DNA from: Tenericutes bacterium HGW-Tenericutes-1
GTDB taxonomy: Bacteria > Bacillota_I > Bacilli_A > Izemoplasmatales > Hujiaoplasmataceae
DNA: 64,000 nucleotides
Reading direction: 5' to 3'
NCBI GenBank assembly: GCA_002839155.1
Contig: PGXM01000007.1
Span: forward strand, 1 to 64,000
Shown here in pieces: positions 138 to 56,902 of this stretch. The notes under the pieces were generated by a model. That model was not told the origin of the DNA, ran no database searches, and saw only the letters and a list, made by a program, of their open reading frames with translations. The position numbers were made by a program, and so were the translations under genes. The stretch's first letter is position 1; each line of letters opens with the position of its first letter.

Positions 138-3100
138 TTATTCAGCTGTTTTTGCGAAGTATTCAGTAATCATGATGACCGGTCCAAGACCTGGAACTTC
201 AGCCGATATTTCCATATATCTGCCTTCTTCAGGTGCTTGTCCAGTTACACCTACCACTTGATACGCTTGTTGCCAAGTAAAACCATAAGTGATCATAGCG
301 CCATATACATAGTAGGCTTGATCAGGCGTAATATTATGGAAAGCAGCCATGTATACAAGGTTTCCAGCGTCAGCTTGAGATAATGAGTAAGTCCCCATCA
401 TATAGCCAACAGCCATTAAGAAATTATTCGTATCAAGTAAATCATTGATTGCGAAAGCAAAGTTTCCGCCCATGATTCTTGGGTCCCCACTGCTTAAGAA
501 ATTGAATGCTTGGTCTACTGCAACCGGTGTTCCACTGGCATTTGGAATATTAAGTAAGAATTCAGAACCTGTATCGTTGACACCATTATTATCTGGGTCA
601 GTTGATGCTCCATCCAATGTTTTCGTTAATAAAACGAAATTAAACATTTCAGTTTCTAATCCTGTAACTGGATTTTCAATGAGACGAATAATGGACTTAT
701 TAAGTGCAGCGATGCCTTGATCGGTCATCCCTTTTATTTGTAGCGCAGCACTGGTCATGCCATAGGCTTTAAACCATGCTTCTTGACCTGAAACCCAGTT
801 ATTAACGGTTGTCAAGTTGTCTAAGTTAACCGTTGGATCTTCTGCTCCACCACTTCCAGAACGGTTGTCTTCAACGTGAATTGCTGCTCCACCGGATAAT
901 CCGATATCTGAAGCGGTAATGGTGATTTGGCTTGAAGCCCATCCAAAAATGGAGTTAGCCCATTCGTTATAGAAAGTTGAATGATCAATATGGGTTGTAA
1001 CAATTTCGCCACCAGTCGTATAGCCATAAGCGTTTGTTGTAACACCAATGGTCATGAGTCCGATGTTCGAATTGAAGATATGACTGTTACCATTACGAAC
1101 TGTGATACCAACATATCCCCCTGAGTTTCGGCTCATTAATTGTTCAGCGAGTAATATTTCCTCAGCGCTTTGTGAGTAGTTAATGGCAGGTGTTGATGTA
1201 TTACCAACGAGTGTTAAGTTATTGAAAGCAACGTGATTGTTATTGATGGTTGTACTTTGATAAACGTTATAGTATAAAATTGCGACTTGAACGCTAACAA
1301 CGTCGAATGAGCCATCAAAGCCTGTATCGGTAAATCCACCATCAGGATCAGAATTAACGGTCATATAAGGCAAATTCGAGCCATTGATGGTGAAATAGTT
1401 ACCATTAATAACTAAATTGTCATTATCGATTGCTCCACTCATACGAATGTATGGGTTCGCATAGATTTTGCCATTCGTGGCACCAGTTCTATCAGGTGTT
1501 GCATAACCGTTGACAGGTGAACCATCTTCATTGAGTTGGTTTGGAGCTAAGGTTGCTTCAATGGTTGAATGGATATTAATGGTTTGAACGTTAAAGTCTG
1601 CGAAGTAAGTTTTTAAGTCTGCGTCAGTAAAGACGTTATAACCACCGTTGACTTCAAATTCAAAAGACAAGGTGTCAGATTGAACTTTTGTTGCTTCATA
1701 TTTTGGATCAATCTCAACTTTAAATTGTTTGCCTTCTGCAGCTGTTTTAAAGTCAATGACATAATCCTCATTTATTGACAAATAAGTTGATAAATTCGTA
1801 GTTAGTTCATCATAGGAAGCACCATTCCATAAATAGAATGTGTAGAGCAATTCGGTATTGGTTTGTTCAACTCTAGTTCCCTTACTATTAAGAATTCTTA
1901 AATCAAAGTGGAAATCATTCTTTGAACCAATAAGATAAGGTGCAACCGTACTTGATAAGAACAACTCATTTTCTGGGTCAATAGATGAAATGTAATTATT
2001 TAAGTTTGATCCTAAAGCGAATTGACTAATATAAGTAACGACTTCACCTTGATAATATTTTGTTTCAAGCGTTAATGAATTATAGACACTAAAAGAGAAG
2101 TGACCAGGTGTTGCGTTCGTTGTTAGTTTATTGCTATTCGCAGAAATTAAACTGCCACCTTCAGTAATCGTGAATGTGTATTTAGCGTCAAAATTATAAA
2201 CCATGTCAGTATAGAAAATATACGTCGATACTTCTCCTGCTTTTTCAATTAAGAAGTAATCATAAATGAGTGTTTCATCGACAACTTCTACTGGATCAGC
2301 TTCTGTCACATGGGTGAACGTAGCTGAATACGGCGAAGACATTGAAGTTCCTGAAGCCCCTAAAGACATGATTTTAATCGTATGGGTTCCGGCATTATCT
2401 AAGATTTCAGTAACATATGTATAGGTTGTTATCGTTCCGGATTGAACATTGGTCAAAGGTGTAATGATTGATTCAACACCATCTAATAAGAGTTTAAATG
2501 AAGTTGGATAAAGAGAAGCCACGCCCTCAACATACCATGTAATCGTCGTGTCTGAAACATCCGTTACAACAGGTGTTGCTAGTTGGACTAATGATTCCCA
2601 TTTAGCATAAAGCGTTGATGAAATGCCTTCAAATGAACTGTATTTGAAAGTATCAAAATCGATTAAATTGGTATATGTTAATGAATCGTACCAGCCGATG
2701 AAGACAAATCCTGGCTTTGTTAAGTTCATTAACGCTGAAGTATTAGAAATAATATCCGTATTTGTTGGTTGTTCTTGAACAGCGATGTATTTAATAATCG
2801 ATCCGTCCATGAAGATAACACGTTTTAACGTATTGGAGAAATATAATGCCCCAACAACGATATTTGATTGAATGTTATTGAATACTTCTCGATCCCACAT
2901 GACATCTTTTCCGTCAACTGGGGTTAATGCTGGAATTTGAGTAAATGAGGACTTGTATTCAACAGTGAATACTTCGTCAATTTTGGTTCCTGCTGGGTTT
3001 TGTGTAAAAGTAATCGTAAATGTTTGTATTTCATAATGAACCACAACTGAAATCGTGGAAGCAATCGTAATTAATCCAGCTGGATCGGTATAATCAACAC

Positions 3101-4514
3101 CATCAACTGTATACTTAACAAAATCATAACCATCAATGACCACATTAGGCATATATGTTTCTAAATAGTCCATTTGAATAACCAATGGGTTGGATAATGT
3201 TGTTCCAGTTGATTTTGTAAATGAATAGACAACTGATAGATTATATGAACTTGCAAAATCCCATTTTGCATAAAGTGTTAATCCATTGAGTGGCATTTGT
3301 GTTTCAGATGTAAAGATAAATGGATTGCCAGTTACTTCTGCATTTAAATACCAACCTTGGAAAACCATATCGGTTAAAGTTGGATCTGCGGGAGCCGTAA
3401 TGTTAGATAAATAATCAGCAATAATTGGAGCGACGTCACTGCCGTCTCCAGTTTCAAAAGTTATGGTATATTCGATTGGGTCTAATATCATATTCACAGT
3501 TAAATTCGATGAAACATCTGTGAATGCTTTATCCCATCCGCCTAAAGTATAACCAGCAGGCGCTGTATATTCTGGTGCAGTTGCGTCATTTCCATAGAGA
3601 ACAGATACTGTTTCTAGAATGATACCATCGAGTCCTCTAAATGTTACAGAATATGTTTTTTTCGTATAATTCGCTACAATGGTTAAATCTCCAGTAATCG
3701 GATCATTAAAATCATAATCGAATCCAACAAAATCATAACCCGTAATTGTATCTGGTACATTCGGTTCAGTCAAGACTGTACCGTGAGTAACATCACTGGG
3801 TCCAAAAGAAGCATTACCAAGCAAAGTTTCCCCATCTTTGTTTATATAAGTGACGGTATATACTTTATCAGTATAAACGGCTGTCACAGTCATATCAGAA
3901 GTGATATTGGTAAAATCAGTTTGATCCCATACTCCATTTTTACCAGTTACTTCAGGAACAACAGGAATCAGTTCTGCACCTAAAGTGCCACCATGATTCA
4001 CCGATCTTGTATAAAGATCCTCCTCATCAACGACGAATGTAATTGTATAAGTATTGATTAAAAATGATGCAGTAATTGTTAAATCAGATTTGATATTCGT
4101 TCCTTCACTGCTCCAACCCGTGAAAGTATATCCTTCTTTAGTTGGATTTGGTGGTAGAACTGCATCTTCGTCATAATTGACTTCTTGCGTTGCAACAACG
4201 CCATCAATTGAGATTGAGACAGTAAAAACAATCGGATTCCATTTTGCATATAACGTTATATTATCCGTTATAGTAACTTCTGGATCAAATTCAGTTTCTA
4301 AGGTATCATCTGTGTACCAACCGTCAAAGGTATATCCGGTTTTTGTTGGTTCTTCTAAATCATATAAATCTAATTCAAGCGTTAATTTAACATCGGCGAT
4401 GTCATTTCCGCCGTTTGTTTCAAACGAAATAGTGATGCCTGATTCACAGGCTACTAAGAAGAGCATACCGACAAGTAGCATCGCTACTGTCAAGATTTTT
4501 TTCATGGTGTTCAA
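138..4514 (-). CDS. Giant surface lipoprotein with about nine InlB-type B repeats and a beta-helix-like region
   Basis: This is a cell-surface lipoprotein of about 1455 residues. The N-terminus (MKK..., hydrophobic core, LVAC) is a lipoprotein signal with the lipid-carrying Cys about 20 residues after MKK. Residues ~35-640 hold about nine tandem Listeria/Bacteroides-type (Flg_new/InlB B) repeats, recognised by recurring YTITF-like strands, GYTFxGW turns and LYAKW endings. A Fn3-like stretch follows. Residues ~980-1230 are rich in short N/T/G-rich strands (for example NGNYFTING, HSTFYNEW), which suggests a right-handed parallel beta-helix of the pectate-lyase or adhesin type. No catalytic motif was recognised. 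Start: the GGGGG ribosome site at 4524-4528 lies 9 nt before a TTG at 4514 but 18 nt before the ATG at 4505, so the TTG fits better; the ATG remains possible. It is the last gene after the ABC transporter cluster 4563-8826, which might export or maintain it (inference). The role is probably adhesion or polysaccharide binding. Confidence 0.85.
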   Translation of the reverse strand: MNTMKKILTVAMLLVGMLFLVACESGITISFETNGGNDIADVKLTLELDLYDLEEPTKTGYTFDGWYTDDTLETEFDPEVTITDNITLYAKWNPIVFTVSISIDGVVATQEVNYDEDAVLPPNPTKEGYTFTGWSSEGTNIKSDLTITASFLINTYTITFVVDEEDLYTRSVNHGGTLGAELIPVVPEVTGKNGVWDQTDFTNITSDMTVTAVYTDKVYTVTYINKDGETLLGNASFGPSDVTHGTVLTEPNVPDTITGYDFVGFDYDFNDPITGDLTIVANYTKKTYSVTFRGLDGIILETVSVLYGNDATAPEYTAPAGYTLGGWDKAFTDVSSNLTVNMILDPIEYTITFETGDGSDVAPIIADYLSNITAPADPTLTDMVFQGWYLNAEVTGNPFIFTSETQMPLNGLTLYAKWDFASSYNLSVVYSFTKSTGTTLSNPLVIQMDYLETYMPNVVIDGYDFVKYTVDGVDYTDPAGLITIASTISVVVHYEIQTFTITFTQNPAGTKIDEVFTVEYKSSFTQIPALTPVDGKDVMWDREVFNNIQSNIVVGALYFSNTLKRVIFMDGSIIKYIAVQEQPTNTDIISNTSALMNLTKPGFVFIGWYDSLTYTNLIDFDTFKYSSFEGISSTLYAKWESLVQLATPVVTDVSDTTITWYVEGVASLYPTSFKLLLDGVESIITPLTNVQSGTITTYTYVTEILDNAGTHTIKIMSLGASGTSMSSPYSATFTHVTEADPVEVVDETLIYDYFLIEKAGEVSTYIFYTDMVYNFDAKYTFTITEGGSLISANSNKLTTNATPGHFSFSVYNSLTLETKYYQGEVVTYISQFALGSNLNNYISSIDPENELFLSSTVAPYLIGSKNDFHFDLRILNSKGTRVEQTNTELLYTFYLWNGASYDELTTNLSTYLSINEDYVIDFKTAAEGKQFKVEIDPKYEATKVQSDTLSFEFEVNGGYNVFTDADLKTYFADFNVQTINIHSTIEATLAPNQLNEDGSPVNGYATPDRTGATNGKIYANPYIRMSGAIDNDNLVINGNYFTINGSNLPYMTVNSDPDGGFTDTGFDGSFDVVSVQVAILYYNVYQSTTINNNHVAFNNLTLVGNTSTPAINYSQSAEEILLAEQLMSRNSGGYVGITVRNGNSHIFNSNIGLMTIGVTTNAYGYTTGGEIVTTHIDHSTFYNEWANSIFGWASSQITITASDIGLSGGAAIHVEDNRSGSGGAEDPTVNLDNLTTVNNWVSGQEAWFKAYGMTSAALQIKGMTDQGIAALNKSIIRLIENPVTGLETEMFNFVLLTKTLDGASTDPDNNGVNDTGSEFLLNIPNASGTPVAVDQAFNFLSSGDPRIMGGNFAFAINDLLDTNNFLMAVGYMMGTYSLSQADAGNLVYMAAFHNITPDQAYYVYGAMITYGFTWQQAYQVVGVTGQAPEEGRYMEISAEVPGLGPVIMITEYFAKTAE

Positions 4515-4562
4515 TGTTTTTTTCCCCCTATTATGTAATACATATAACACTTAACAATCATT

Positions 4563-5012
4563 TTAGAAAATATCTGGGTCATCAATGATAATCTCTGATG
4601 GAGGTAAGAACATTAAAGTAATTTCATCTTTAATTTGTGTGTTCTTGTCCCAAATTGTCACCGTCACAGTCGTTCCAATTTTATCAATTTCAAAAATAAC
4701 ATAAACGACTGATTTCATATCATCAACTCTCGCAGTTACGCCAGATTGATTGGTTGAAGCCTTGATTTTCGAATCTGCATTAATCGGTCCTACGGTAAAA
4801 GCAATCTCATAAATATAATCGTCTTCGGTAATCGTATCGACAACGCTCTTAATTTTATCACCATCGCTGTTCTTTAAATCAAAATCAGGGATTGTGATGG
4901 AAACAACACTCGGTCGGTCATTCGATTCGGGTAAAGAACCCCAGACACTGATTGCCATAATAGACAATGCACTGAGGATAAATACGAGAAGAACGATTAT
5001 CTTTTTATTCAT
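4563..5012 (-). CDS. Small membrane-anchored extracytoplasmic protein of unknown function
   Basis: This 149-residue protein has one N-terminal hydrophobic segment (residues ~4-24) with no lipobox cysteine, so it is a signal anchor or an uncleaved signal. The rest looks like a small beta-rich extracellular domain with alternating V/I/T strands and no recognisable motif. The ribosome site AAGGTGG lies 7 nt before the ATG and overlaps the stop codon of the upstream ABC permease gene, so the two genes are co-transcribed and probably translationally coupled. I do not recognise the family. The position suggests an accessory subunit of the ABC system or a partner of the downstream lipoprotein (inference). 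Confidence 0.75.
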   Translation of the reverse strand: MNKKIIVLLVFILSALSIMAISVWGSLPESNDRPSVVSITIPDFDLKNSDGDKIKSVVDTITEDDYIYEIAFTVGPINADSKIKASTNQSGVTARVDDMKSVVYVIFEIDKIGTTVTVTIWDKNTQIKDEITLMFLPPSEIIIDDPDIF

Positions 5013-5024
5013 AAAATCACCACC

Positions 5025-6635
5025 TTAAAACTCTATTTCTCGAAAGTATACTTTCAAAAAATTACTAAATAAATAAAACCTTATGACTAAAAACGCAAAT
5101 GCTAACAGAATAATTCTTAACCATCCCGTAGCATAATTTTCTATCAGCAGAAACGCTGATATTCCGCCAAAAATGATACTGAGGACTAAACCAATGACAA
5201 TCGATTTAGACACATTCTCATTATTGGTTAGTGATGCAGTTGCGGCGTAATCCGATAATTTCGGATTCAGTAAGTCAATTTGAAAACTCCACAAGATATG
5301 GCCGCTATTGACAAAAACCACGACAGCAAACATGAGCCAAATATCCGTGGGTGAAAACTGCGGTAAAGACAATTGAAATAAGACAAAGATTAACAATATG
5401 ATAAAGGTTGAAGCAATCATATTAAATGCCACTTTTGCCCAAGCCATTTTCTTGGTATCAGATGGAGCGGTTTTTAATAGTACAAATTCAGCTCCTTCTA
5501 CAGAGATAGCTGTCGCAGATGCCGTATTGGATGCAGTCACTAATAACAAACTGATCATGATATCAAAAGCGATGACTAATTTAGTTCCAAAGGTTGAACG
5601 ATCGATACCAATATAAATATAGTTCAAAACGTAGACAACAAATGGAAATAATATGAGCAAGACATAATTTGATAACATTTCATTGGAACTTCTGATTGAA
5701 ATCGTGAATTCTTTTTTGAAAAAGGTCCAAAACAAATTTTTACTAACTTTATTGGTGCCTTTATGTTTCTTTGTCACGGCATATTCGGATGTATGTGATG
5801 CTAAATTAAAGAACAATGGACGTGATATTAAAACAACTAACGCAATTAATACAAACAGGACGCCAAACACAATTCCATAATTAGATAAGACATTGATTCC
5901 AAATAACAATCTTCCAATATTCGCATAAATTAAAGCATATTTAGCAGACGACTGCATAAATACAGTTAATGAAGTCACAAATTTGTTATATAAAGCTACA
6001 ATGCGAATCGGAGTTGGTATTTCATCGAGTAGACCTGTTAATCCCAAAAATACGAATACCCCAAAAATAATTAATAAGACTAATGTAACGACATTTCTAG
6101 TTTGTAAGAACTGCCTTATGTACATAATGGGTATTGATATAATAGCAGCTAGTAAAACTGGAAGTAATGGCAAGATGAAAATCATCGTTAAAATATTCAA
6201 ATAAAAGGTCAACGGTAAATTACTAATAACACCAAACGCAATCAACAAAGGCACCAAAAATGATAAGTTCTTTAAAAATTCGTTGATATAAAACACTAAT
6301 AATTTACTAGTAAATACTTCATCATGTTTCGCAGGGAATGAAAGTAATATTGCATTGTCTTTACTTGCATATAAATCAACCATTAATCCTGTCGTACAAG
6401 CAATAATACTGGTTAATTGAGTAACGAATAAAACAAAGATAATAAAGTACACGTTAACTGGGATATATAATACGTTATTAAAGAAATAGAGCATGAAAAT
6501 CATGACAACGGTAATAACAATGAGACCCAATAATCTTAGGGCAAGATTCGCAATGAACTTCTTTTGATTGGTAATCTTTAATTTCATCTTGCTAGATAAT
6601 TGAATCATTGTCAGGATGAATAACCGCCTGAACAT
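5025..6635 (-). CDS. ABC transporter permease (ABC-2-like, polytopic)
   Basis: This 536-residue integral membrane protein has about 12 hydrophobic segments spread over the whole length and no ATP-binding motif. It resembles the large two-copy permeases that pair with a single ABC ATPase in Firmicutes. The gene follows directly after the ATPase fusion gene. An upstream in-frame ATG at 6656 would overlap that gene but has no ribosome site. The ATG at 6635 is preceded by AAAGGA at a spacing of 8 and gives MFRRLF, so I use it. The stop codon sits inside the ribosome site of the next gene, 5012-4563. The substrate cannot be read from the sequence; export of a lipid, peptide or surface component is the usual role of such systems. 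Confidence 0.8.
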   Translation of the reverse strand: MFRRLFILTMIQLSSKMKLKITNQKKFIANLALRLLGLIVITVVMIFMLYFFNNVLYIPVNVYFIIFVLFVTQLTSIIACTTGLMVDLYASKDNAILLSFPAKHDEVFTSKLLVFYINEFLKNLSFLVPLLIAFGVISNLPLTFYLNILTMIFILPLLPVLLAAIISIPIMYIRQFLQTRNVVTLVLLIIFGVFVFLGLTGLLDEIPTPIRIVALYNKFVTSLTVFMQSSAKYALIYANIGRLLFGINVLSNYGIVFGVLFVLIALVVLISRPLFFNLASHTSEYAVTKKHKGTNKVSKNLFWTFFKKEFTISIRSSNEMLSNYVLLILFPFVVYVLNYIYIGIDRSTFGTKLVIAFDIMISLLLVTASNTASATAISVEGAEFVLLKTAPSDTKKMAWAKVAFNMIASTFIILLIFVLFQLSLPQFSPTDIWLMFAVVVFVNSGHILWSFQIDLLNPKLSDYAATASLTNNENVSKSIVIGLVLSIIFGGISAFLLIENYATGWLRIILLAFAFLVIRFYLFSNFLKVYFREIEF

Positions 6636-6639
6636 TGAA

Positions 6640-8826
6640 TTAATCCTTTTTGACATGAAGCAAGTATAATTGCTCGAGTGTCAGTCCTTGATCTTTTAAT
6701 TTCGCTACTTCAAAAATGCCAACAAGTTGTCCTTTTCGAATAATCGCAATTCGGTCGCATATTTTTTCAACCACTTCAATCACGTGCGAAGAGAAAAACA
6801 CAGTGTTACCTCTATTAGCGTGTTCACGCATCTCTTCTTTGATTTGATGCGATGATGTAGGGTCTAATCCCGTTAATGGTTCATCCAAAATCCATACTTT
6901 TGGATCATGAATGAGGGAGGAAATAACAACGAGTTTTTGTTTCATGCCATGCGAGTAACTCTTAATTTCGTTATCAATCGCATCAGTTAATGCAAAACGC
7001 TCTAAATAATGGTTCAATCTTTCATCGCGTTCTTTTTGCGGAACCATGTATAAATCTGCGACATAATTGATATATTCTCTTCCAGTTAATCGTTCATAGA
7101 CAGCATGGTTATCAGATACATACCCAATATTTAATTTAGCTTCTAATGGATGGGTTTTGATGTTATAACCACAGATTTCCATATCCCCTTCAGTAATCGA
7201 CTGAATCCCTACAAGACTTTTAATGGTCGTCGATTTGCCTGCACCATTATGACCTAAGAATCCAAACACTTCTCCACCTTTGACGGTTAACGAAAAATCA
7301 TCGACTGCGTAATATTTAGAGGAACCATAACGTTTTCTAAAATGCGTTATTTTAATCATATCAGTTCCGTTATAATTTTCTTTGTTTTCAAGTTCACTCT
7401 TCTTCTTCAAAGCATTCACCCCTAATAAGTCTAGTTTCATTTTTTTGCGTTTATCAAGCATGTCATAGTACTGATCAAACGCTTTGAAGAGCATATCATA
7501 AATCGCCCATGTTATAAACATCATGATAATGAAACCAACATATAACATGATGTGATATAACCAGAAGAATCTTAATGTCACCGTTTCTGAAACTCTAATG
7601 GAAAATACATAAGAAAACTGAAGTCTTTCAAGGCCTAACATCCCACTGATATGATCAGAGTACAAGAAGAAATAATCGACACTCTCATAATTATTAAACC
7701 AAGCGTTGATGAGTGCCATTGATACAAAGTACAAACTAAAGATAAAAATAGCTTTATACATCATTTTTAATGTGGGTCGTTCAAAGACGCGTAAAGCGAC
7801 CCCTAAAACCGGTAATACAAACGCATAAATATGATTATACCAGTATCCAACTGATGAGATGGTAAAAGCATCAATGGTATAGTTTGGTAAAAGAATCGCA
7901 AAAGCAGCTCCGACAACATTCACAAAATAACTGAAATAAAATACGCCTCTTAATTTAAATACGTAGGCAAAAAACATCATGATGATTGCGGTATTGCAAA
8001 GATGAAGCGGGAGTCCTCCGAGTCCTGATCGACGAATGTAGAAAAATTGAAAGAATCCCGATAATGCGAGAATAACAAAGAATAAATTCTTGTCTTCTTG
8101 TTTTTTGTTTCTCATGAGCAAATACCCTAATATCATGAAAACAAACGTAAAGTAGATTGTTATTCGATGGATTGGCGTGAATTCATCAGCGATAACCCCT
8201 GAATTTCCAAAAAGATTATAAAGCAGAGATTGAGGCATAAAAGCAGCTAATGAAACAAACGTGACAAAAGCGGCACGCCGTATTAAAGTAACATTTAAGT
8301 ACGTCGTTTTATTGGTTAATACGGTATGTAAATTTAAGACGGTTATAACGCCTAACAAAACTGTTTCAATCATGTATTGAATGCTTCTTAAAGAAAGTAA
8401 ATCAGGATTTCCAGGTCCAAAGAAAGCAATTAAATGTGATTTGAAAAAGATAATATTCAGAATGATAACAAGGGTTCCGATAAAGCCTAAGGAGAGTTTC
8501 AAAGAGGGTTGTTTAAAATAACCACTGACAATTCCAAAAGCAACAAACATGACGGTCAACCATCGTAAAAACAAGATGAAGAACGTTTTAAACCCAGTAA
8601 AGAACCATGTTGATTCAGGTGATATGGCGGAAGACTGAACTATTTTAAGAAGGTTAAATGTTCCATCAATCAAGTCTGAAGAAAATAAACGAAACATATA
8701 GACGACAAATAAAGTAACGCTTAATATTCTGAGTATCAATGAAAAATCAATTTTTGATTTTTGAGATAAATATATCAAAATAAATGCGATAAGAGCTATA
8801 AAAACAGGCAAAATCAAGTAAATCAC
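6640..8826 (-). CDS. Fusion of a YwaF-like multi-pass membrane domain and an ABC ATPase
   Basis: This is a 728-residue two-part protein. Residues 1 to ~460 are membrane-embedded with about 11 hydrophobic segments. Within this, residues ~210-400 resemble the YwaF/TIGR02206 family (LPLHLCNTAI and following helices). After a charged linker (KKKSELENKE), residues 490-728 are a complete ABC ATPase: Walker A GHNGAGKS at 525-532, signature SHGMKQK at ~625-631, Walker B WILDEP at ~645-650, then an SSH switch. It looks like the ATPase of a bacitracin/antibiotic-type exporter and must serve the permease encoded next (5025-6635). The start is a GTG after GGTGATGG. A weak ribosome-like CGGAAC precedes the internal ATG at 7359, so a free ATPase might also be made. 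A YwaF-ABC fusion is unusual; normally these are separate proteins. Confidence 0.85.
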   Translation of the reverse strand: MIYLILPVFIALIAFILIYLSQKSKIDFSLILRILSVTLFVVYMFRLFSSDLIDGTFNLLKIVQSSAISPESTWFFTGFKTFFILFLRWLTVMFVAFGIVSGYFKQPSLKLSLGFIGTLVIILNIIFFKSHLIAFFGPGNPDLLSLRSIQYMIETVLLGVITVLNLHTVLTNKTTYLNVTLIRRAAFVTFVSLAAFMPQSLLYNLFGNSGVIADEFTPIHRITIYFTFVFMILGYLLMRNKKQEDKNLFFVILALSGFFQFFYIRRSGLGGLPLHLCNTAIIMMFFAYVFKLRGVFYFSYFVNVVGAAFAILLPNYTIDAFTISSVGYWYNHIYAFVLPVLGVALRVFERPTLKMMYKAIFIFSLYFVSMALINAWFNNYESVDYFFLYSDHISGMLGLERLQFSYVFSIRVSETVTLRFFWLYHIMLYVGFIIMMFITWAIYDMLFKAFDQYYDMLDKRKKMKLDLLGVNALKKKSELENKENYNGTDMIKITHFRKRYGSSKYYAVDDFSLTVKGGEVFGFLGHNGAGKSTTIKSLVGIQSITEGDMEICGYNIKTHPLEAKLNIGYVSDNHAVYERLTGREYINYVADLYMVPQKERDERLNHYLERFALTDAIDNEIKSYSHGMKQKLVVISSLIHDPKVWILDEPLTGLDPTSSHQIKEEMREHANRGNTVFFSSHVIEVVEKICDRIAIIRKGQLVGIFEVAKLKDQGLTLEQLYLLHVKKD

Positions 8827-16252: not shown

Positions 16253-16552
16253 TTATTGGTTTGTCGCTACTTTTGTCTTAACATTGATAACAATATCTTG
16301 ATATTCAACGTGCTTTTTGAACCACTCAATTGCATAAGGACATTTCGCGATGATTAAAAGTCCTCTGCCTTTTAAATAAGAATATGCCAATTCCATTAAA
16401 TGGGAAGCAACACCTTTTCCTCTTAATGATTCGTCAACGAAAACATGGGTAATGTTGACCCGTTTTTCGTCACGATGAGGAAAGTTAATCTCAGCGAGTA
16501 GTTTTCCGTTTTCCATTGAAAAAATTCGATCTACGTCGTATTGAAAATTCAT
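16253..16552 (-). CDS. Small GNAT-family acetyltransferase (YjdJ-like)
   Basis: This 99-residue protein has the compact GNAT fold of the Acetyltransf_CG (PF14542) group. Seen are ITHVFVDESLRGKGVASHLMELAYSY-type strand and helix (acetyl-CoA pyrophosphate loop RGKGVA) and a C-terminal CPYAIEWFKKH motif characteristic of this group. The substrate is unknown. The ATG overlaps the stop of the upstream methyltransferase gene in an ATGA, so the two are translationally coupled. Confidence 0.85.
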   Translation of the reverse strand: MNFQYDVDRIFSMENGKLLAEINFPHRDEKRVNITHVFVDESLRGKGVASHLMELAYSYLKGRGLLIIAKCPYAIEWFKKHVEYQDIVINVKTKVATNQ

Positions 16553-17268
16553 GGTTGTAACCTCCTTAAATGGTACATAATAATAGAACCGGCAACGGCA
16601 ACATTGAGCGATTCAACAGTATCGATGTCAATAAAAATATTCAGCGAAGTTTTATTTAATAGTTCTTGTCTTACGCCTGCTCCTTCATTGCCTAAAATAA
16701 TCGCAATTTTTGCATCTTTTCTAGGAACTGTCGTTAAACTAAAAGCCTCTTTTAATGAAGTTCCATAATAGATATAATCAGGATTCTGATCGATGAATTG
16801 TAGTAAGTCAGTCTCAATTAGATTCAATTGAAATAAGGCACCTTGAGTACTTCTAATGACTTTCGCATTATAAGGATCAACACTGTTTTCATATAGAATT
16901 GTCTCAAATCCAAACGCTAAAGCACTTCGAAGCAATGTTCCAAAGTTACCTGGATCTTGAATATGGTCAAGCATTAATAGCCGTTCTCCGATGTTAAATA
17001 CAACGGGTTTTGAACAAATAGCAATGACGCCTTGAGGTTCCATGACTTCGGAGATTTTGTTCATCACAATTTCATTGACCATTTCAACATTATCAAACGA
17101 TTCATAGGTTGATAAATTCGAAAAAATTGTTTTTACAATGCCCTGTTTTATTGCTTCTTCCACTAAGTGCGGACCTTCGACAATAAATTCGTTGGATTCA
17201 TCTCTAAACTTTCGTTTTTGTAAATTGAGCAAATGTTTTATCTTTTCATTTGAAACCGATGTTATCAT
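16549..17268 (-). CDS. SpoU/TrmH-family RNA 2'-O-methyltransferase (YsgA-like)
   Basis: The 239-residue protein has a short N-terminal substrate-binding domain (HLLNLQKRKFRDESNEFIVEG) and a SPOUT methyltransferase domain. The three knot motifs are visible: DHIQDPGNFGTLLRSALAFG, IILGNEGAGV and SLNVAVAGSIIMYHL. This identifies a SAM-dependent rRNA or tRNA ribose methylase; the YsgA/RlmB branch fits the length. The exact target nucleotide is not readable. The ribosome site GGTGATG precedes the ATG. Its promoter shares bases with the upstream gene's terminator. Confidence 0.9.
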   Translation of the reverse strand: MITSVSNEKIKHLLNLQKRKFRDESNEFIVEGPHLVEEAIKQGIVKTIFSNLSTYESFDNVEMVNEIVMNKISEVMEPQGVIAICSKPVVFNIGERLLMLDHIQDPGNFGTLLRSALAFGFETILYENSVDPYNAKVIRSTQGALFQLNLIETDLLQFIDQNPDYIYYGTSLKEAFSLTTVPRKDAKIAIILGNEGAGVRQELLNKTSLNIFIDIDTVESLNVAVAGSIIMYHLRRLQP

Positions 17269-17283
17269 ATCATCACCATCTTC

Positions 17284-17313
17284 ATTATACCATGAAAATC
17301 AAAAGGGAGACAA
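17284..17313 (-). promoter_or_regulatory. Promoter of the methyltransferase-GNAT unit
   Basis: Minus strand: TTGTCT (17308-17313), 18-bp spacer, TATAAT (17284-17289), 16 bases before the start codon. The -35 box lies within the 3' arm of the terminator hairpin at 17305-17331. Confidence 0.7.
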
Positions 17314-17331
17314 ATTATTGGTTTGTCTCCC
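17301..17331 (-). terminator. Terminator of the duplicated-domain lipoprotein gene
   Basis: Stem GGGAGACAAA (17305-17314) / TTTGTCTCCC (17322-17331), 7-nt loop, followed on the minus strand by TTTT. It lies 22 bases after the stop codon of 17353-21567. Confidence 0.85.
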
Positions 17332-17352
17332 CTAAGCTATTTAAATTAATTC

Positions 17353-20300
17353 TTAGACGGTCGGTACATATCCTTCGGGACCGTTATTTAAGAAAGACCC
17401 GAGTTGTTCAATCAAGATTCTTAATGCATCAATTTCAGCGATTTCAGCCTCTGTTAATCCTTCAACAATTTCAAGAGTTAATGGGTCATCATAAGTAATT
17501 TGTAAGGTTAATGGATCAATATTATCGGCATATGCTTGTACAACTGAAGTTTGATAGACGATATCATCGATGAGGGTTTGCAATTCTAGAATTAAATCCT
17601 CAATAACGATAGTTCCTGTGTAATTGAATCCGTAAGCAAAATCAAAGTATCCATTGATGATTAAGGCAATGAGATAATCGTAATCAAGTGAGTCTCCCGC
17701 TAATAATTCATCAATGATATTAGCAATATAGATGGCTCTAACAAAATTATCATTGAGTTCTTGTGCTTCTTCACCTGGGAGATATTCATAAGGCAATGAG
17801 TTAATAATTTCAATGGAATCCATGATTTCTTGGATCTTAAGTTCAGTCAATGTTCCCATAAAATTAGTAACAATCAACTTCACATCAAAGATGGCATAGA
17901 AGTACGTTTGAATTGCTGTTGAAATGTCGAGATAAATCGCATCCGCTTCTAATACTGGCAATCCAAGTGAATAAACATATTGGTAAGCCACTTTTTGTAA
18001 GAAGGTTACCACTGTTGCTTTATCAGTTTCATCCATTGAAGAGAACAGATGAACTAAGAAATCTTCTGCAGAATTGAGATAACCTAAGATACCTAAAGCT
18101 GATAGATCGAGTGTGCTAGGATCAACACTACCCGTCATTAAACCGATCACTAAGTTATAAGAATCGGTATCAGGGTACATAATCAGTGATCCCACTTCAT
18201 CAATTAATATTAACGCAACATCTTCAAGTAATCCAAAATTATCAGGATCATCGAAGAATCCGTCGATGTGAATCCATATTTCATTTTTATTTCCATAAGA
18301 CATTTGTTCTAAATACATGTCCATTTGGCGTTGATATTCACCAATTTGAAAGGTGATTTCATTATAAGTGTTAATGTTGTTAATGAACCACATGCCAATT
18401 TGCAATCCTAAGGATGTTTGATACATTGGGAACATGTAGCTCATTTGAAGATTTTGCATTTGAGGATAGTAGACAGTCCAATGGAAATTATAGTTTGTTT
18501 CAGCATAATTTAAAACCGGACCATACATCATTTGTTCATCATACGATAACATATTAAATTCATCAAGGTAGTTTTGATAAGTGACTTGCATTTCCGGTGG
18601 AAGCATCATTCCGCCGACACCTTGATAATAACGATTGAGTAAATCATCTAAATACCAATAAGTATAATCATTCCACATCCAGTAATAAGGTTCCATTTGT
18701 TTGACAGAGTTAAGCATATTCCAAAAATCATTTTCAAGTTGACGGTTGTAGATGAATGTATTCCATAGTGATTCAACATCAGTCAATAGAGGATCAGTCA
18801 TAAGTGATTTCTCGTAGTCAAAATCAGCGAAGAAATCGATTAATTCTTGATTCCAGAAATTGTATTCAACCATGGCATCATCATAATAACCTTGTAACTC
18901 ATCAAGATAAGTTGGATCATATTCGTACATAACCATATAGTCACTAAATTCATATAAGAAGGTCGCAACCATATGCGCTAATGTCGCATTATCAAACCCC
19001 ATCGTTCCCATTAAGGTATAGAGTTCTTGAACGTCCTCAATGGAATTTATTGATTCAACAAAAGCCTGTAGTTCCATAACACTCATGATCGTGAACATCA
19101 CCTCTGCTTCTGTTTCATAGCCAAAGGTTGTGACTATCACATCAATCAATGCGTCTGCTTGACCTGGATCCATTTCTTGATAAGGGTCAATTAAATTAAC
19201 TAACATTTCATGTACGTCTAAATAGTCATATGGGTCTAAAATACCTTCTAAATCACCCATTTGAAGTAACATGACTAGCCGTTGTCCACGGCTGTATAAT
19301 TCGTACATGAGCATCATATCATCAACTGATAAGTCTTCAGGATTGAGTAATGAAACGTCATGAGCAACTAAGATAATTTGATGAATAGCATCAACCATCG
19401 CTAGCTTCACAGCTGCAGTGACTAATGGATCAGCATTGAACATGGTATTGACGTCATAATAGACTTCAACAAAGTGTCCAACGAGCAATTCAATATCAAA
19501 TGTTCCATCATATAAGAAAGCATCAATTAAGATAGCGACATTAATAACAATTGAATAGGGATCATCTTCCATGTTGCTTTGCATTAATAATGGAATGGTA
19601 TCCATTAATAATTGAACTTTCTCAGGTGTCATACCATTGAGTAAATCGATTAGTTCATAATAAACATCACTAGCAATACCGATATATTGTGGTCCTTTTA
19701 ATTCGAATATTGCTAAGATTGCGGTTTGTTCCATAGCTTCCATGTCAGAATATTGTAATAAAATTTCTACAACATCATAGCCCATCGATAATAGATTAGC
19801 CGTATCGGTAGCATCAATTGAAGAACCAAGTAACGTCAATAAATCAGCAACTTGATGAGCATATCCGCTAATATCAGTCGGTGTCATCGGTAATGTGTCT
19901 GGTGTAACTTGACCTGTGACTAAATCAAAGATTAAGTTGAAAGTTGCAGGGTCAATACCAACAATGACCGATTCAACAACATCATAAACAGTTCCTACTA
20001 AGATGGTTAATTTTGTTGTCCCTTCAACGCTCCATAAATAATCTCTCATAGCTACGAGCATTTCATGGTTGACTTGATCTTCTACCATCCATTGATATTC
20101 TTCTTGAATCATCCATTCGTAGTTTCCGATTTGATTATAGTTATCCCAGAATGAATTCATGTAATCATTTTGAATGACTTCCATAACATTACGTTGTTTA
20201 ACATTGTCATATAATGGCCACATAGCTTGATTTAAATCTTGAAGTGTCACATGTTGATATGTTTGCCATGCCATGTACATGTCAAGCAATGGTTCATACA

Positions 20301-21567
20301 TTGCTAATTCTTCTGTGGTCAATGAATCCATCATTGCGTTAAAGTCAGCTAAGTACATTGCTGCAGTGTCTGGATCTTCATAGTAATATAGGTAATCATA
20401 ATAATACTGAATATTCCATTCTAAATCGTAATACTTGCCCCAATCAAAATCATTGCCCCATAATTCGTCAACTCCACCCCATAATGAATTTTGATAAGCA
20501 TTCATTAATTGAGTGTTTTCTAATTCAGCTGCGATATAGGCGTGACAAGTGACGGCATCAGAAAGTGCTAAAGTATCGCAATAGTTACTGATATCGCTTT
20601 GAACTTGAGTAAATTGTTGATTTGCTAATGCGAGTTGTTCTTCAAAATATGCAATATTATCTAAATATTTTTGTTCATCATAACGTTTTGATTCTTGATC
20701 AATCATCATCAATATTGCATTCACTAACATTTCAACGATTCGATCTTGATCGTAGCCTTGAACTGATAAAGCAGCGAACCAAGATTGGAATTCAGCTAAA
20801 GTCGTGAATGTTGGTAATACTTGAACCATGGTCATAACTTCAACCATCATTAAATACGTTGCTTGTTCTGTCTCCATGCCAGAAACGAACATTAACATCT
20901 CAATGGTACGATCGATTTCTTCAGGTCCAGGTTCTCCATCTGACATCGAAATAATCATATCAACCAATAATTGATAATGTCCTTCATAAACCGCATGAAC
21001 GTTAATATTGCCAGTTACATTTGAAAAAGCTGCGTCCCATCCACTAAAAACGAACCCTACTTTGTATGGAGCATCTGGAGGGGTTGCACCTTGTCCAAAT
21101 TCAATGGTTTGTGATTCAATTAATACGCCGTCAGCGTCATAAAAATTGACGGTGTAGGTTAAAGCTTGCCATTTAGCATATAAAGTTACTCCTGTAGAAG
21201 GCATAACAGTAAATGTATATGGCATCGTTAATGAAATGTTTGAATACCACCCAATAAACGTATATCCGGTTTTAGATGGTGCCACCGGTGCGGTGACTGA
21301 AGAACCGACAGTTTGTGTAATATTCGCAACTGTACTTCCACCATTTTCTTCAAAAGAAATGGTTGCTGTACCAGGCACAGCTGTCGTCGTGGTTGTCGTC
21401 GTGTTTGTGCCCGACGTTGTTGTTGTTGTTGTTGAGGTTGAATCTTCAACAGTCGTTGTTGTCGTAGTAGTATCGGTTGGTAATGTTTGTGTTCCAAACC
21501 AATCGCAACCTGCAAGTACAAAAGTTGTTAGGAACATGAACAGAATCAGTAAAATACGTTTCTTCAT
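17353..21567 (-). CDS. Large surface lipoprotein with two InlB-type repeats and a duplicated Tyr/Trp/Met-rich region
   Basis: This is a 1404-residue lipoprotein: signal MKKRILLILF..., lipobox LAGC with Cys21, then a Thr-rich linker (residues ~28-65). Two InlB B-type repeats follow (GYTFIGWYSN ... LYAKW and GFVFSGWDAAF) to about residue 195. The remaining ~1200 residues are predicted helical, strongly acidic and unusually rich in Tyr, Trp and Met. They consist of two diverged copies of about 595 residues (~199-790 and ~792-1385). Matching landmarks include FNLIFDLVTGQVTPDTL (~544) against YNLVIGLMTGSVDPSTL (~1139), and GSSIDATDTANLL against FSSMDETDKATVV. No catalytic motif or known family was recognised. 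AGGGAGGA precedes the ATG. It is a monocistronic unit, probably a cell-surface binding or structural protein. Confidence 0.85.
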   Translation of the reverse strand: MKKRILLILFMFLTTFVLAGCDWFGTQTLPTDTTTTTTTVEDSTSTTTTTTSGTNTTTTTTTAVPGTATISFEENGGSTVANITQTVGSSVTAPVAPSKTGYTFIGWYSNISLTMPYTFTVMPSTGVTLYAKWQALTYTVNFYDADGVLIESQTIEFGQGATPPDAPYKVGFVFSGWDAAFSNVTGNINVHAVYEGHYQLLVDMIISMSDGEPGPEEIDRTIEMLMFVSGMETEQATYLMMVEVMTMVQVLPTFTTLAEFQSWFAALSVQGYDQDRIVEMLVNAILMMIDQESKRYDEQKYLDNIAYFEEQLALANQQFTQVQSDISNYCDTLALSDAVTCHAYIAAELENTQLMNAYQNSLWGGVDELWGNDFDWGKYYDLEWNIQYYYDYLYYYEDPDTAAMYLADFNAMMDSLTTEELAMYEPLLDMYMAWQTYQHVTLQDLNQAMWPLYDNVKQRNVMEVIQNDYMNSFWDNYNQIGNYEWMIQEEYQWMVEDQVNHEMLVAMRDYLWSVEGTTKLTILVGTVYDVVESVIVGIDPATFNLIFDLVTGQVTPDTLPMTPTDISGYAHQVADLLTLLGSSIDATDTANLLSMGYDVVEILLQYSDMEAMEQTAILAIFELKGPQYIGIASDVYYELIDLLNGMTPEKVQLLMDTIPLLMQSNMEDDPYSIVINVAILIDAFLYDGTFDIELLVGHFVEVYYDVNTMFNADPLVTAAVKLAMVDAIHQIILVAHDVSLLNPEDLSVDDMMLMYELYSRGQRLVMLLQMGDLEGILDPYDYLDVHEMLVNLIDPYQEMDPGQADALIDVIVTTFGYETEAEVMFTIMSVMELQAFVESINSIEDVQELYTLMGTMGFDNATLAHMVATFLYEFSDYMVMYEYDPTYLDELQGYYDDAMVEYNFWNQELIDFFADFDYEKSLMTDPLLTDVESLWNTFIYNRQLENDFWNMLNSVKQMEPYYWMWNDYTYWYLDDLLNRYYQGVGGMMLPPEMQVTYQNYLDEFNMLSYDEQMMYGPVLNYAETNYNFHWTVYYPQMQNLQMSYMFPMYQTSLGLQIGMWFINNINTYNEITFQIGEYQRQMDMYLEQMSYGNKNEIWIHIDGFFDDPDNFGLLEDVALILIDEVGSLIMYPDTDSYNLVIGLMTGSVDPSTLDLSALGILGYLNSAEDFLVHLFSSMDETDKATVVTFLQKVAYQYVYSLGLPVLEADAIYLDISTAIQTYFYAIFDVKLIVTNFMGTLTELKIQEIMDSIEIINSLPYEYLPGEEAQELNDNFVRAIYIANIIDELLAGDSLDYDYLIALIINGYFDFAYGFNYTGTIVIEDLILELQTLIDDIVYQTSVVQAYADNIDPLTLQITYDDPLTLEIVEGLTEAEIAEIDALRILIEQLGSFLNNGPEGYVPTV
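17410..20970 (-). repeat. Tandem duplication of a ~595-residue domain within the lipoprotein
   Basis: Copy A is encoded at about 19198-20970 and copy B at about 17410-19190. The two are diverged at residue level but stay in register with a constant offset of about 595 residues. Boundaries are approximate, read by eye. Confidence 0.65.
21381..21480 (-). repeat. Trinucleotide-rich poly-Thr linker tract
   Basis: Three blocks of ACN codons (21381-21409, 21412-21435, 21451-21480) encode poly-Thr after the lipobox. The middle block contains several identical consecutive triplets, a likely site of in-frame length change. Confidence 0.7.
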
Positions 21568-21707
21568 AAAAATCCTCCCTTAAATAAATTGTCTTGCTTG
21601 TAAGACTTCTTGTATATTTTCACTATAGCACTACTAACAATAAAAATAAAGCGTTTATATAATAAAACTGCATATTAGTAATCGATTGAAACAAAAAATA
21701 TATTAAT

Positions 21708-21734
21708 AAAAAATCACCCTTAATATGGGTGATT
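21708..21734 (-). terminator. Terminator of the beta-propeller lipoprotein gene
   Basis: Stem AATCACCC (21712-21719) / GGGTGATT (21727-21734), 7-nt loop, then a T-run on the minus strand. It lies 19 bases past the stop codon. Confidence 0.88.
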
Positions 21735-21753: not shown

Positions 21754-23646
21754 TTATTCTTGAGGAACAAATACGACAGAATTCAACTCTTTAAATCCAT
21801 CCGTCATATCATATTGTTTTACCGAACGATAAGTAATTGAATAAACATAATCATTGATGAATAATCCTCTAAGTAAATAATCATAATAATAAGATTCATA
21901 ATATTGATTTTGATTAAATACTGGCAATTTAGCAGCTAACTCCAAATCACCTTCAAGTGTGATTTTAAAGACATATAAATTTTGGACATAACGGTATTCG
22001 TAGGTTCCAACAACAACGTCATATTCAAACACAGGAATAGCCACATACCAATAATCTTGACCTTCAGGTTGATAATAAACAAACATCTTATGGTCATAGG
22101 TGACAGGTGTATAACTATAAGTACCTTCAACCAAGTAAGTATCGATGTTTTCTGGATTATTACCAGTGGTATCGTAAAGACTTATTTTTACGCCTTGGAA
22201 TCTACCTTCGGAATCGGCTTGTCTACCAACACCTATTAAGAGATCATCACTCATTTGGTGAAGGTAATCACTAACACCATTTTCATGAAGTTCGCCCACG
22301 ATTTTGGGTTCTAATGGATTTGATAAATCAAGTTTATATAAAGGATCAGTTTGAACGAAAGTCACAACGTAAGCTGTAACTCCTGAGAAACGAACGGCGT
22401 AAATTCTTTCGCCGACTTTTCCTAATCCGCCTAATACAGAGATAAAGGTCATTTCATCGATGGAGGTAGCGTCTAAAATAAAGAGTTGGTTTTGAATGGT
22501 TTGAGAATCGTTGTTCCAAGACCAATCCGTTGTCGCAATTCTAAAGGTTCCATTATATTCATCCATTGAGAATTGATTAAGCGGAGATCCGGTGACACCA
22601 CCCATGGCTTGGTAAACCAATTTACCATCGATGATTTCAAAACGTAATACATAGGTATTATAAGTATAATATCCGGTCTCTTCATCAAAGGCAGAACGAT
22701 ATACCACAGAATACAAATTATTCAAGCTCATGTAGATTTGGTAAGTTGATCCAATATATGCATCGACTTGTGCTGCTTCTTCATCATAAATATTTAAGGA
22801 AGCTATTAAAAGATAAGAAATGGAATAATTGTCATTGGGCATATAGTAGATGTTTTCAGCCGGTAACGTAATCTCACCTTCTGAAACAGTCGAATCTTGA
22901 TACAACGGAACGAAATTATCTTCTAAATAACCATAATTCACAAAATAGTTATTCATAATCAAATAGAGTTGTCCGTTAATCATCCGGCTTTCAGTCAAAT
23001 AAGATTGATCAAAATAAAGTTCTTTTGCGATTTCAATCGCTGCTTTATCTTCAATATCAAGGATGACCACTTTTACACCATATTCATAATAATAATGGAA
23101 GTAATAATAATCTTCGCTGACTTTATCGTCGGTCTCTTCAACAGGAGTATAAGTATATTGACTTCCAAGCAATACGACTCGGTTCTCTTCAATATACATT
23201 TTATCGATATATAAATCTTCTTCAGTGTAGGTATAAACAATTTGAAGTGACTCAGCGTTTATAATGACGAATCTTCCCATAGTTACAAGATAGATGTATT
23301 CACCATCGGTAATGACCGTGTCCGATTCATCGACACCTTCGACTTGGGTATTGGTTTGACTATACCCTGAATTGGTCGAAGTAGTTGTATCTGTAACACT
23401 ACTTTCTAACATCCCATCGACCATCATATTCGTAGTAAAGAACCTCATTCCACCTTTTAAAGTGTAATAGCCTTCATTTTCTTCGTAGAATTGATCTAAA
23501 TATCCTTTTAAATCATCATAACTAGCAAAATTACTAACGGAGCTAATTTCAGGTAATTCATATTTTTTAGTGGTTGTTTTTGAATCACAAGCAATTAGAA
23601 CAAATGCTAGAAACATGGTAAGTAATGAATACAATAATTTTTTCAT
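21754..23646 (-). CDS. Lipoprotein with C-terminal beta-propeller domain (PF09826 type)
   Basis: This 630-residue lipoprotein has the signal MKKLLYSLLTMFLAFVLIAC (Cys20), a short linker and then a long beta-propeller. The stretch NTQVEGVDESDTVITDGEYIYLV is the hallmark entry motif of the Beta_propel (PF09826/COG4880) family of secreted proteins distantly related to WD-40 repeats. Later blades show RIYAVRFSGVTAYVVTF and KLDLSNPLEPKIVGELHENG. No enzymatic function is established for the family. GTAGGAGGG precedes the ATG. It is a single gene between two terminators, next to another large lipoprotein gene. Confidence 0.9.
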   Translation of the reverse strand: MKKLLYSLLTMFLAFVLIACDSKTTTKKYELPEISSVSNFASYDDLKGYLDQFYEENEGYYTLKGGMRFFTTNMMVDGMLESSVTDTTTSTNSGYSQTNTQVEGVDESDTVITDGEYIYLVTMGRFVIINAESLQIVYTYTEEDLYIDKMYIEENRVVLLGSQYTYTPVEETDDKVSEDYYYFHYYYEYGVKVVILDIEDKAAIEIAKELYFDQSYLTESRMINGQLYLIMNNYFVNYGYLEDNFVPLYQDSTVSEGEITLPAENIYYMPNDNYSISYLLIASLNIYDEEAAQVDAYIGSTYQIYMSLNNLYSVVYRSAFDEETGYYTYNTYVLRFEIIDGKLVYQAMGGVTGSPLNQFSMDEYNGTFRIATTDWSWNNDSQTIQNQLFILDATSIDEMTFISVLGGLGKVGERIYAVRFSGVTAYVVTFVQTDPLYKLDLSNPLEPKIVGELHENGVSDYLHQMSDDLLIGVGRQADSEGRFQGVKISLYDTTGNNPENIDTYLVEGTYSYTPVTYDHKMFVYYQPEGQDYWYVAIPVFEYDVVVGTYEYRYVQNLYVFKITLEGDLELAAKLPVFNQNQYYESYYYDYLLRGLFINDYVYSITYRSVKQYDMTDGFKELNSVVFVPQE

Positions 23647-44230: not shown

Positions 44231-45214
44231 TCACCGATCCTTTTCGCCGAATAAGCGGTAAGCCACTCTTGAGAACATTAAAATCAATAACAAGAGTAAT
44301 ACAGAAAGTGCTGCCGCATATCCCATTTCATAACGAATAAAACCATAATCATCAATATGGTTAACAATTAACTGACCTGCGTATTGCGGCGTTGGGTTAG
44401 ATCCCGACAACGCAACACCAATACCGCCGGCATTGAATGCACCAACAATCGCCATAACCGCACCGAATAACATTTGCGGTTTCATCGAGGGAATGGTGAT
44501 ATAAAAAATCTCTTGAAGACGGTTTTTAATGCCGTCGATATAAGCCGCTTCATACATTTCGCGGTTGACATTTAAAATACCTGCTAGCATCGATAAGAAG
44601 CCAATGCCCATCGAACTCCATAACGTTACGAATATCATGATGCTCATCAAATAATCGCCAGATTGGAGAAAATCAATCGGGGTATTTACAAATCCTAAAT
44701 CAAGGAAGATTGCATTGATATAGCCCGATTTATCGCCTGAGAATAAAGTTCTAAAGATAACACCTGTTAAAACGCCCCCCAGCATTGAAGGGGTATAAAG
44801 TGCAAGCGCTAAATATTTTCTGGGTGTTGATTGAATTTGAGAAAGCATCCAAGCCATGAGGAATGATAAAGCATATCCTCCTGGTCCGGTAATGATGGCG
44901 TATTTTAACGTATTAGGTAAAACATAACGTAAGAATACTTCATCTTGCGTCAAAATCATGATGTAGTTATAAAATCCACCCATCTTCGCATAGACAGGCA
45001 TTTCAATGACGTTAAAATAGGTAAATGATAAACCCATAGCCACTAAAACTGGAATAACTATAAACAAGGTGAATAAAATAATATATGGCGCAAGTAATAA
45101 TACGGTTGATAATTTGTCTTTATCAACTTTTTCCCATGCAGGTTGAATCTTTGTTTGATAGAGTTTTTTGAGTTTGTTATCTTTTTTCTCTATCTTGTTT
45201 TCTGCCATCATCAT
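44231..45214 (-). CDS. Sugar ABC transporter permease, MalF type
   Basis: This 327-residue CUT1 permease has a charged N-terminal tail of ~40 residues, six or seven helices and the EAA loop [26 protein letters not shown]. The EAA loop deviates at its centre (IDGIKNRLQ instead of IDGANxxQ), while the other three permeases keep the consensus. The start is an ATG triplet run overlapping the stop of the binding-protein gene as ATGA. Confidence 0.92.
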
Positions 45215-48198: not shown

Positions 48199-48239
48199 AA
48201 AAGTCCTCCGTGTTTTTCAAAAAATTGGGTATTTTCGTA

Positions 48240-48260
48240 TATGTAAACCGTATCATACGG
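48240..48260. promoter_or_regulatory. Degenerate TATGTAA-type operator plus CCGTAT-C-ATACGG palindrome
   Basis: TATGTAAACCGTATCATA (48240-48257) resembles the operator found at 50160, 58251 and 61781 but with a shifted right arm. It overlaps a perfect 6-bp palindrome CCGTAT-C-ATACGG (48248-48260) just downstream of the -10 box. Confidence 0.5.
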
Positions 48261-48264
48261 CATA

Positions 48265-48294
48265 ATTATATCATAACTCTAAGAGTTATGCCAA
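48265..48294 (-). promoter_or_regulatory. Promoter of the binding-protein/permease operon
   Basis: Minus strand: TTGGCA (48289-48294), 18-bp spacer, TATAAT (48265-48270). The spacer contains the perfect palindrome ATAACTCT-A-AGAGTTAT (48273-48289). Confidence 0.8.
48273..48289. promoter_or_regulatory. Perfect 17-bp palindrome between -35 and -10
   Basis: ATAACTCT-A-AGAGTTAT fills the promoter spacer and touches the last base of the -35 box. It is the classic position for a repressor or an MerR-type activator site. Confidence 0.6.
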
Positions 48295-48300
48295 CAGATT

Positions 48301-48334
48301 ATAAAGAAAAGGTGTGCTTTTTTGAGCACACCTT
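48301..48334 (-). terminator. Terminator of the solute-binding lipoprotein gene
   Basis: Stem AAGGTGTGC (48309-48317) / GCACACCTT (48326-48334) with an 8-nt loop; T-rich beyond on the minus strand. It lies 11 bases after the stop of 48346-50085. Confidence 0.9.
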
Positions 48335-48345
48335 CAGTCAATTTT

Positions 48346-50085: not shown

Positions 50086-50123
50086 TTTTATCCTCCTATT
50101 GTTTTTTTGAATATATCAAAATT

Positions 50124-50152
50124 ATTTTATCATATAGATAAAGCGTTTTCAA
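50124..50152 (-). promoter_or_regulatory. Promoter of the binding-lipoprotein gene with an overlapping cre-like site
   Basis: Minus strand: TTGAAA (50147-50152), 17-bp spacer, TAAAAT (50124-50129). TTGAAAACGCTTTATC (50137-50152) resembles the CcpA cre consensus (TGAAANCG core) and covers the -35 box. Confidence 0.65.
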
Positions 50153-50159
50153 TACTTTT

Positions 50160-50177
50160 TATGTAAATGGTTACATA
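50160..50177. promoter_or_regulatory. 18-bp palindromic operator of the glucan regulon
   Basis: TATGTAAATGGTTACATA, the reverse complement of TATGTAACCATTTACATA. Here it lies just upstream of the -35 box of the binding-lipoprotein promoter; the flanking T/A extends the arms. Confidence 0.75.
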
Positions 50178-50214
50178 ATTTTTTATATATTGTAAAGTCT
50201 ATCTCTATCATATT

Positions 50215-52392: not shown

Positions 52393-52393
52393 T

Positions 52394-54343: not shown

Positions 54344-54353
54344 AAAAACCTTC

Positions 54354-56893: not shown

Positions 56894-56902
56894 TGAATTC
56901 TC

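Follow-up and report, generated by a model that had tools for sequence, protein, structure and literature searches.

What is the large protein encoded between positions 17353 and 21567 of the window (the whole stretch of 64,000 nucleotides that was analysed), and what might it do for its cell? Little is known of how free-living bacteria without a wall construct and use their surface. A preliminary description of the locus took the product for a surface protein of no recognised family, built from a duplicated unit of about 595 residues rich in Tyr, Trp and Met, and possibly representing a new binding fold. The features of the locus are as follows.

16549..17268, minus strand: conserved downstream neighbour, SpoU-family RNA methyltransferase, followed by rimP-nusA and the rest of the cluster (family match; synteny)
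17303..17333, minus strand: terminator-like hairpin 3' of the lipoprotein gene
17353..21567, minus strand: complete coding sequence of the predicted surface lipoprotein, 1404 aa (ATG start; purifying selection)
17356..19188, minus strand: helical unit 2, 'last' type, residues 794-1404 (profile match; unit tree; alignment with unit 1)
18283..18915, minus strand: predicted arm of unit 2, residues ~885-1095 (low-confidence full-length model; alignment with unit 1)
19198..20952, minus strand: helical unit 1, 'first' type, residues 206-790 (profile match; model with pLDDT 85; unit tree)
20032..20688, minus strand: predicted arm of unit 1, residues 294-512, with long Tyr/Trp-rich helices (model; composition)
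20545..20580, minus strand: Cys pair C330/C341 (comparison of units)
20980..21165, minus strand: Listeria-Bacteroides repeat 2 (PF09479), residues ~135-196 (second Pfam stretch; bounds set by eye)
21172..21363, minus strand: Listeria-Bacteroides repeat 1 (PF09479), residues 69-132 (Pfam, E 2.4e-18, two stretches)
21370..21489, minus strand: Thr-rich linker, residues 27-66 (composition)
21508..21567, minus strand: signal peptide with lipobox, residues 1-20, ending in FVLAG-C20 (LAGC) (sequence)
21573..21580, minus strand: ribosome-binding site AGGGAGGA, with the ATG 5 nt further on (sequence)
21712..21734, minus strand: terminator-like hairpin 3' of the propeller gene, upstream of the lipoprotein gene
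21754..23646, minus strand: conserved upstream neighbour, a lipoprotein with a PF09826 beta-propeller (Pfam E 1e-113; synteny)

The open reading frame has exactly the bounds 17353-21567 on the minus strand, begins with ATG behind a good ribosome-binding site, and specifies 1404 amino acids. Because terminator-like hairpins flank it on both sides, the gene is probably its own transcription unit. An Rfam search of the window returned no match. Comparison with two orthologues of the same genus gave dN/dS values of approximately 0.13 (0.23/1.73, 211 codons) and 0.26 (0.49/1.87, 1192 codons), which are rough since synonymous sites are close to saturation. Judging from these ratios, the frame evidently encodes a real protein under purifying selection.

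The N-terminal part, with its lipobox, Thr-rich linker and two PF09479 repeats, had been overlooked in the preliminary description. The signal peptide contains a lipobox with the invariant cysteine of bacterial lipoproteins (MKKRILLILFMFLTTFVLAGC), Thr accounts for 41.7% of residues 1-60, and the same succession of lipobox and Thr linker is seen in complete relatives with an intact N terminus. The PF09479 match scored 66.4 bits against a curated cut-off of 27, in two stretches spanning residues 69 to ~196 only, and the number of copies above the cut-off varies among relatives (4, 1 and 0 in three examples). This repeat is a frequent spacer among surface proteins of the same genome. Several copies (PF09479, E 1.2e-50) also occur in a second large lipoprotein of the window (138-4550, minus strand; 1470 aa).

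The order to which the genome belongs has been described as wall-less (PMC10868615; PMC8397711). We detected the penicillin-binding transpeptidase domain (PF00905) in none of eight genomes (this one and seven others of the order) compared with 10 of 14 control genomes. The lipobox together with the absent cell wall supports the prediction that the protein is lipidated and surface-exposed, in agreement with its earlier designation as a surface protein. Since both the order and the genome lack a wall, a lipoprotein with a net charge of about -180 would face the medium directly.

The duplication itself proved robust. Local alignment of the two halves scored 281, about 22 SD above the mean of 200 composition-preserving shuffles (59.6, SD 10.1, maximum 109), and the two diverged copies do run in register, with only modest gaps. 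An iterated profile built from relatives set the unit at 586 columns, so that its length is nearer to this figure than to the 595 residues first given, and matched residues 206-790 (E 1e-187) and 795-1404 (E 3e-162). The two copies share 20% identity (114/557), copy 2 being longer through insertions. Their predicted secondary structure (helix or non-helix) is the same at 91% of aligned pairs, whereas none of 179 circular shifts exceeded 78%. One could suppose that there is no true repeat and that low-complexity or coiled-coil composition mimics one, given that the composition is biased and helix-forming; however, the excess of 22 SD over shuffles of that same composition, profile E-values of 1e-160 and beyond, and the purifying selection on the protein leave this explanation a negligible probability. 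A chance or low-complexity origin of the duplication was ruled out by the shuffle scores and the profile matches.

The composition is unusual in part. The protein is indeed rich in Tyr and Trp (9.3% together) and in Met (5.6%), as had been reported; however, its Tyr/Trp content does not set it apart from other proteins of the window, as had also been claimed, because the adjoining propeller lipoprotein reaches 12.2%. Lys and Arg make up 2.4%, and the acidic excess of 12.7 per 100 residues is the largest among the window ORFs analysed. Full-length units carry net charges of -68 to -110 (near -80), and negative charge and Lys/Arg poverty are kept in every unit even though identity among units falls to 15-25%. 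Several other lipoproteins of the same genome are likewise acidic, and acidity may therefore be a trait of the whole surface of this organism.

Nothing in Pfam, NCBIfam, PHROGs or the PDB sequences matched the two helical units better than expected by chance, so that the failure to recognise a family holds for the unit and not for the N-terminal part, where the Listeria-Bacteroides repeat was readily identified. A PDB sequence search with the whole protein gave one match (E 0.68), taken as chance. Two candidates were rejected: designed helical bundles, the best PDB match of a 36-row profile (E 0.002), in which no single stretch passed and which was attributed to chance, and DUF1311 (3gi7, E 0.19), a match near the Cys pair that lacked Pfam support. 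A literature search found no paper on Izemoplasmatales surface lipoproteins or on this family of proteins.

Structure prediction of one copy, as proposed in the preliminary description, gave a confident all-helical model. AlphaFold2 modelled unit 1, from an alignment of 8 rows, as all-alpha with ~21 helices and essentially no strand (pLDDT 85.1, pTM 0.63). The full ectodomain, from a 4-row alignment, was modelled with low confidence (pLDDT 67, pTM 0.37), and at these pTM values the relative packing of the units and the arm was not confidently placed. Foldseek found no match for the unit 1 model at E <= 0.001 in PDB or BFVD, which is weak evidence for the suggested new fold because elongated, loosely packed helical models search poorly.

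The longest helices of the model lie in the middle region of the unit (unit residues ~89-307), which also holds most of its Tyr and Trp: these residues make up 12-22% of the arm (unit residues 151-300) versus mostly 2-5% of the tail. We marked this region as a module because it is duplicated in relatives L031 and L044, which carry extra copies, and missing from units 2 and 3 of L037; on this comparison it appears to have been gained, lost and duplicated independently. It is the least conserved region, with a mean identity of 17% versus 22% in the tail, and its length is kept. Helix lengths and modularity suggest that the middle region projects as an arm, and each unit is predicted to consist of a conserved helical body (head and tail) bearing a Tyr/Trp-rich helical arm.

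Relatives possess 1 to about 4 units per protein. In a maximum-likelihood tree of units, all first units form one clade (100/100), last units form another (95/93) and middle units fall into separate clades, with the caveat that some branches are long and that L045, labelled 'last', groups among middle units. Because first and last units form separate clades, the multi-unit state is older than the diversification of these genera. A pair of cysteines equivalent to C330/C341 is present in 15 of 15 first units of multi-unit proteins and in 0 of 20 other units; the single-unit paralogue lacks it. The largest member (L031, 6061-14595, minus strand; 2844 aa) has repeated arm modules within one unit, and the strand opposite its gene also contains long open frames.

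Orthologues were found in most sampled genera of one family of the Izemoplasmatales. A search with the single protein matched 21 of 61 relatives and a profile search of 90 genomes from the order gave 27 with a match, all within that family; among 395 genomes drawn evenly from the class, the sole match outside it was a weak one in G107. At every locus examined save that of the single-unit paralogue L035, the gene sits between the PF09826 propeller and SpoU/rimP-nusA, its position being judged, where a contig ends, from whichever neighbour the contig reaches. L036 and L037, from one genus, have an extra gene between the family member and the SpoU methyltransferase; both extra ORFs (5794-8340 and 3402-5984, respectively, minus strand) hold a divergent single unit and represent a tandem paralogue. 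Between genera, orthologues share ~25-30% identity compared with ~45-90% for the neighbouring genes. In G007, G015, G012, G019 and G020 the propeller gene lies near the SpoU gene and the family gene is missing there. G021 does carry it, while its congeners G007 and G015 do not, and therefore loss in this genus is likely. Its absence from the syntenic position in some close species shows that the gene is not essential. Farther away in the window are an ORF that matches both TMEM164 (PF14808, E 8e-15) and an ABC transporter ATPase (PF00005), an unusual pairing (6640-8826, minus strand), and an apparent sugar-uptake and glycoside-hydrolase cluster (45211-58228, minus strand) with an SBP_bac_8 protein, GH3 and GH30 lipoproteins and more enzyme-like ORFs.

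The unit also has distant kin. Its tail aligned with lipoproteins of an FN3 type (hhalign probability 96%, E 2.7e-9, 191 columns), the unit profile scored 31.7 bits against L053, and the head of the unit was matched at 32.1 bits by a protein of G107, a genome of a different family within the class, where the best of 510 shuffled sequences reached 3.1. The tail is thus distantly homologous to a second lipoprotein type that combines an FN3-like domain with a helical region. The FN3 type was detected in 63 of the 395 genomes, many matches covering only the FN3-like N terminus. In G019, an 1878-aa lipoprotein (L052, 5367-11000, plus strand) unites the helical superfamily, SBP_bac_8 and Peripla_BP_6 in one chain.

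What function would fit these data? We tentatively favour the reading that the protein is the lipid-anchored ectodomain of a wall-less cell, serving as an adhesin or a capture scaffold and displaying its aromatic arms to a partner outside the cell. We do so because of the lipobox and Thr linker, the lack of a transpeptidase, the all-alpha model and the position-specific clades; because the arm is gained and lost independently, is rich in Tyr and Trp, and diverges quickly at constant length; and because the units are acidic, orthologues have diverged far beyond their neighbours, and one relative joins the tail to solute-binding domains. The layout read from the sequence is a lipobox, a Thr-rich stalk, none to several List_Bact_rpt spacers, and 1 to ~4 tandem helical units of ~585 residues. 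Stacked outward from the naked membrane, these units would form a flexible acidic scaffold. What their arms meet could be, for example, a polysaccharide, another cell or the surface of a particle, and the number of units and arms could tune reach and avidity. The Cys pair of the membrane-proximal unit might staple the base of its arm. The arms may bind a ligand, although no recognised binding motif was found. Further points against this reading are the acidity of several other lipoproteins in the genome, the absence of the gene from some close species, and the low confidence with which the packing of units and arm was modelled.

The main rival, which we consider rather less probable, is a polyanionic coat with no specific ligand, in which dense, strongly negative helical rods cover the naked membrane like a brush, bind cations, repel neighbours and shield the cell, standing in for a wall or for teichoic acids. 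The retention of charge and Lys/Arg poverty at such low identity, the wall-less state of the cells, and a varying unit number, as if length mattered rather than sequence, all point this way. However, a Tyr/Trp-rich arm, a Cys pair confined to first units and position-specific clades exceed what bulk charge needs, and the gene is missing from some close species. We prefer the scaffold to the coat, a choice that the sequence data do not settle. A bolder reading, in which the unit is an undescribed all-helical fold (a body with a detachable aromatic arm) amplified in the wall-less lineage into a polyanionic appendage that replaces wall-bound adhesins, strikes us as unlikely.

Two further proposals have less in their favour. 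The ectodomain might hold substrates or solute-binding proteins near transporters for nutrient uptake, perhaps with the propeller lipoprotein, which is its constant upstream neighbour; the fusion of the tail to SBP_bac_8 and Peripla_BP_6 in the distant G019 relative would suit such a role. However, no transporter adjoins the gene, the propeller gene stands at the locus in other species that lack the family gene, and terminator-like hairpins separate the genes, which together make this proposal improbable. Self-assembly into an S-layer-like lattice is more improbable still: the protein is large, acidic and secreted, and one very weak PDB profile match was to SlpA (E 3.4, chance level), but the lipid anchor, a unit number that differs between species, and the lack of any SLH or other S-layer family match argue against it.

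This is a large family without library annotation. Throughout one bacterial family its members keep the same locus while diverging rapidly in sequence, and they are linked to a broader set of helical lipoproteins in Bacilli that has yet to be described. The defined unit, the arm and the position-specific Cys pair make the protein divisible into pieces that can be expressed and tested.

Among known systems, S-layer proteins are not matched, as Pfam found no SLH or other S-layer domain in the window protein or in 36 units. Like List_Bact_rpt or InlB B-repeat proteins (PF09479, TIGR02543), the protein carries this repeat, with two copies separating the Thr linker from unit 1; however, these are confined to the spacer region and unrelated to the helical units, and no LRR family, as in InlB-like internalins, was found in the Pfam scan of the protein. 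Helical repeat scaffolds (HEAT, TPR, designed helical repeats) are likewise all-alpha, with marginal profile matches to designed bundles, but neither Pfam nor Foldseek (E <= 0.001; insensitive for such models) supports an alpha-solenoid, and no short internal repeat was defined. The PF09826 secreted beta-propeller lipoproteins resemble it as acidic lipoproteins and constant upstream neighbours, yet have another fold and are non-homologous. The nearest likeness is to the uncharacterised FN3-type helical lipoproteins of Bacilli (L053-L056, L058, L060), which also have a lipobox, a beta-domain and then a helical region whose C-terminal segment is homologous; these differ in having one unit only, an FN3-like domain in place of the List_Bact_rpt and no detected Tyr/Trp-rich arm, and they also occur outside the order. 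The units described here are a new, uncharacterised protein family of a familiar kind, the modular repeat surface lipoprotein.
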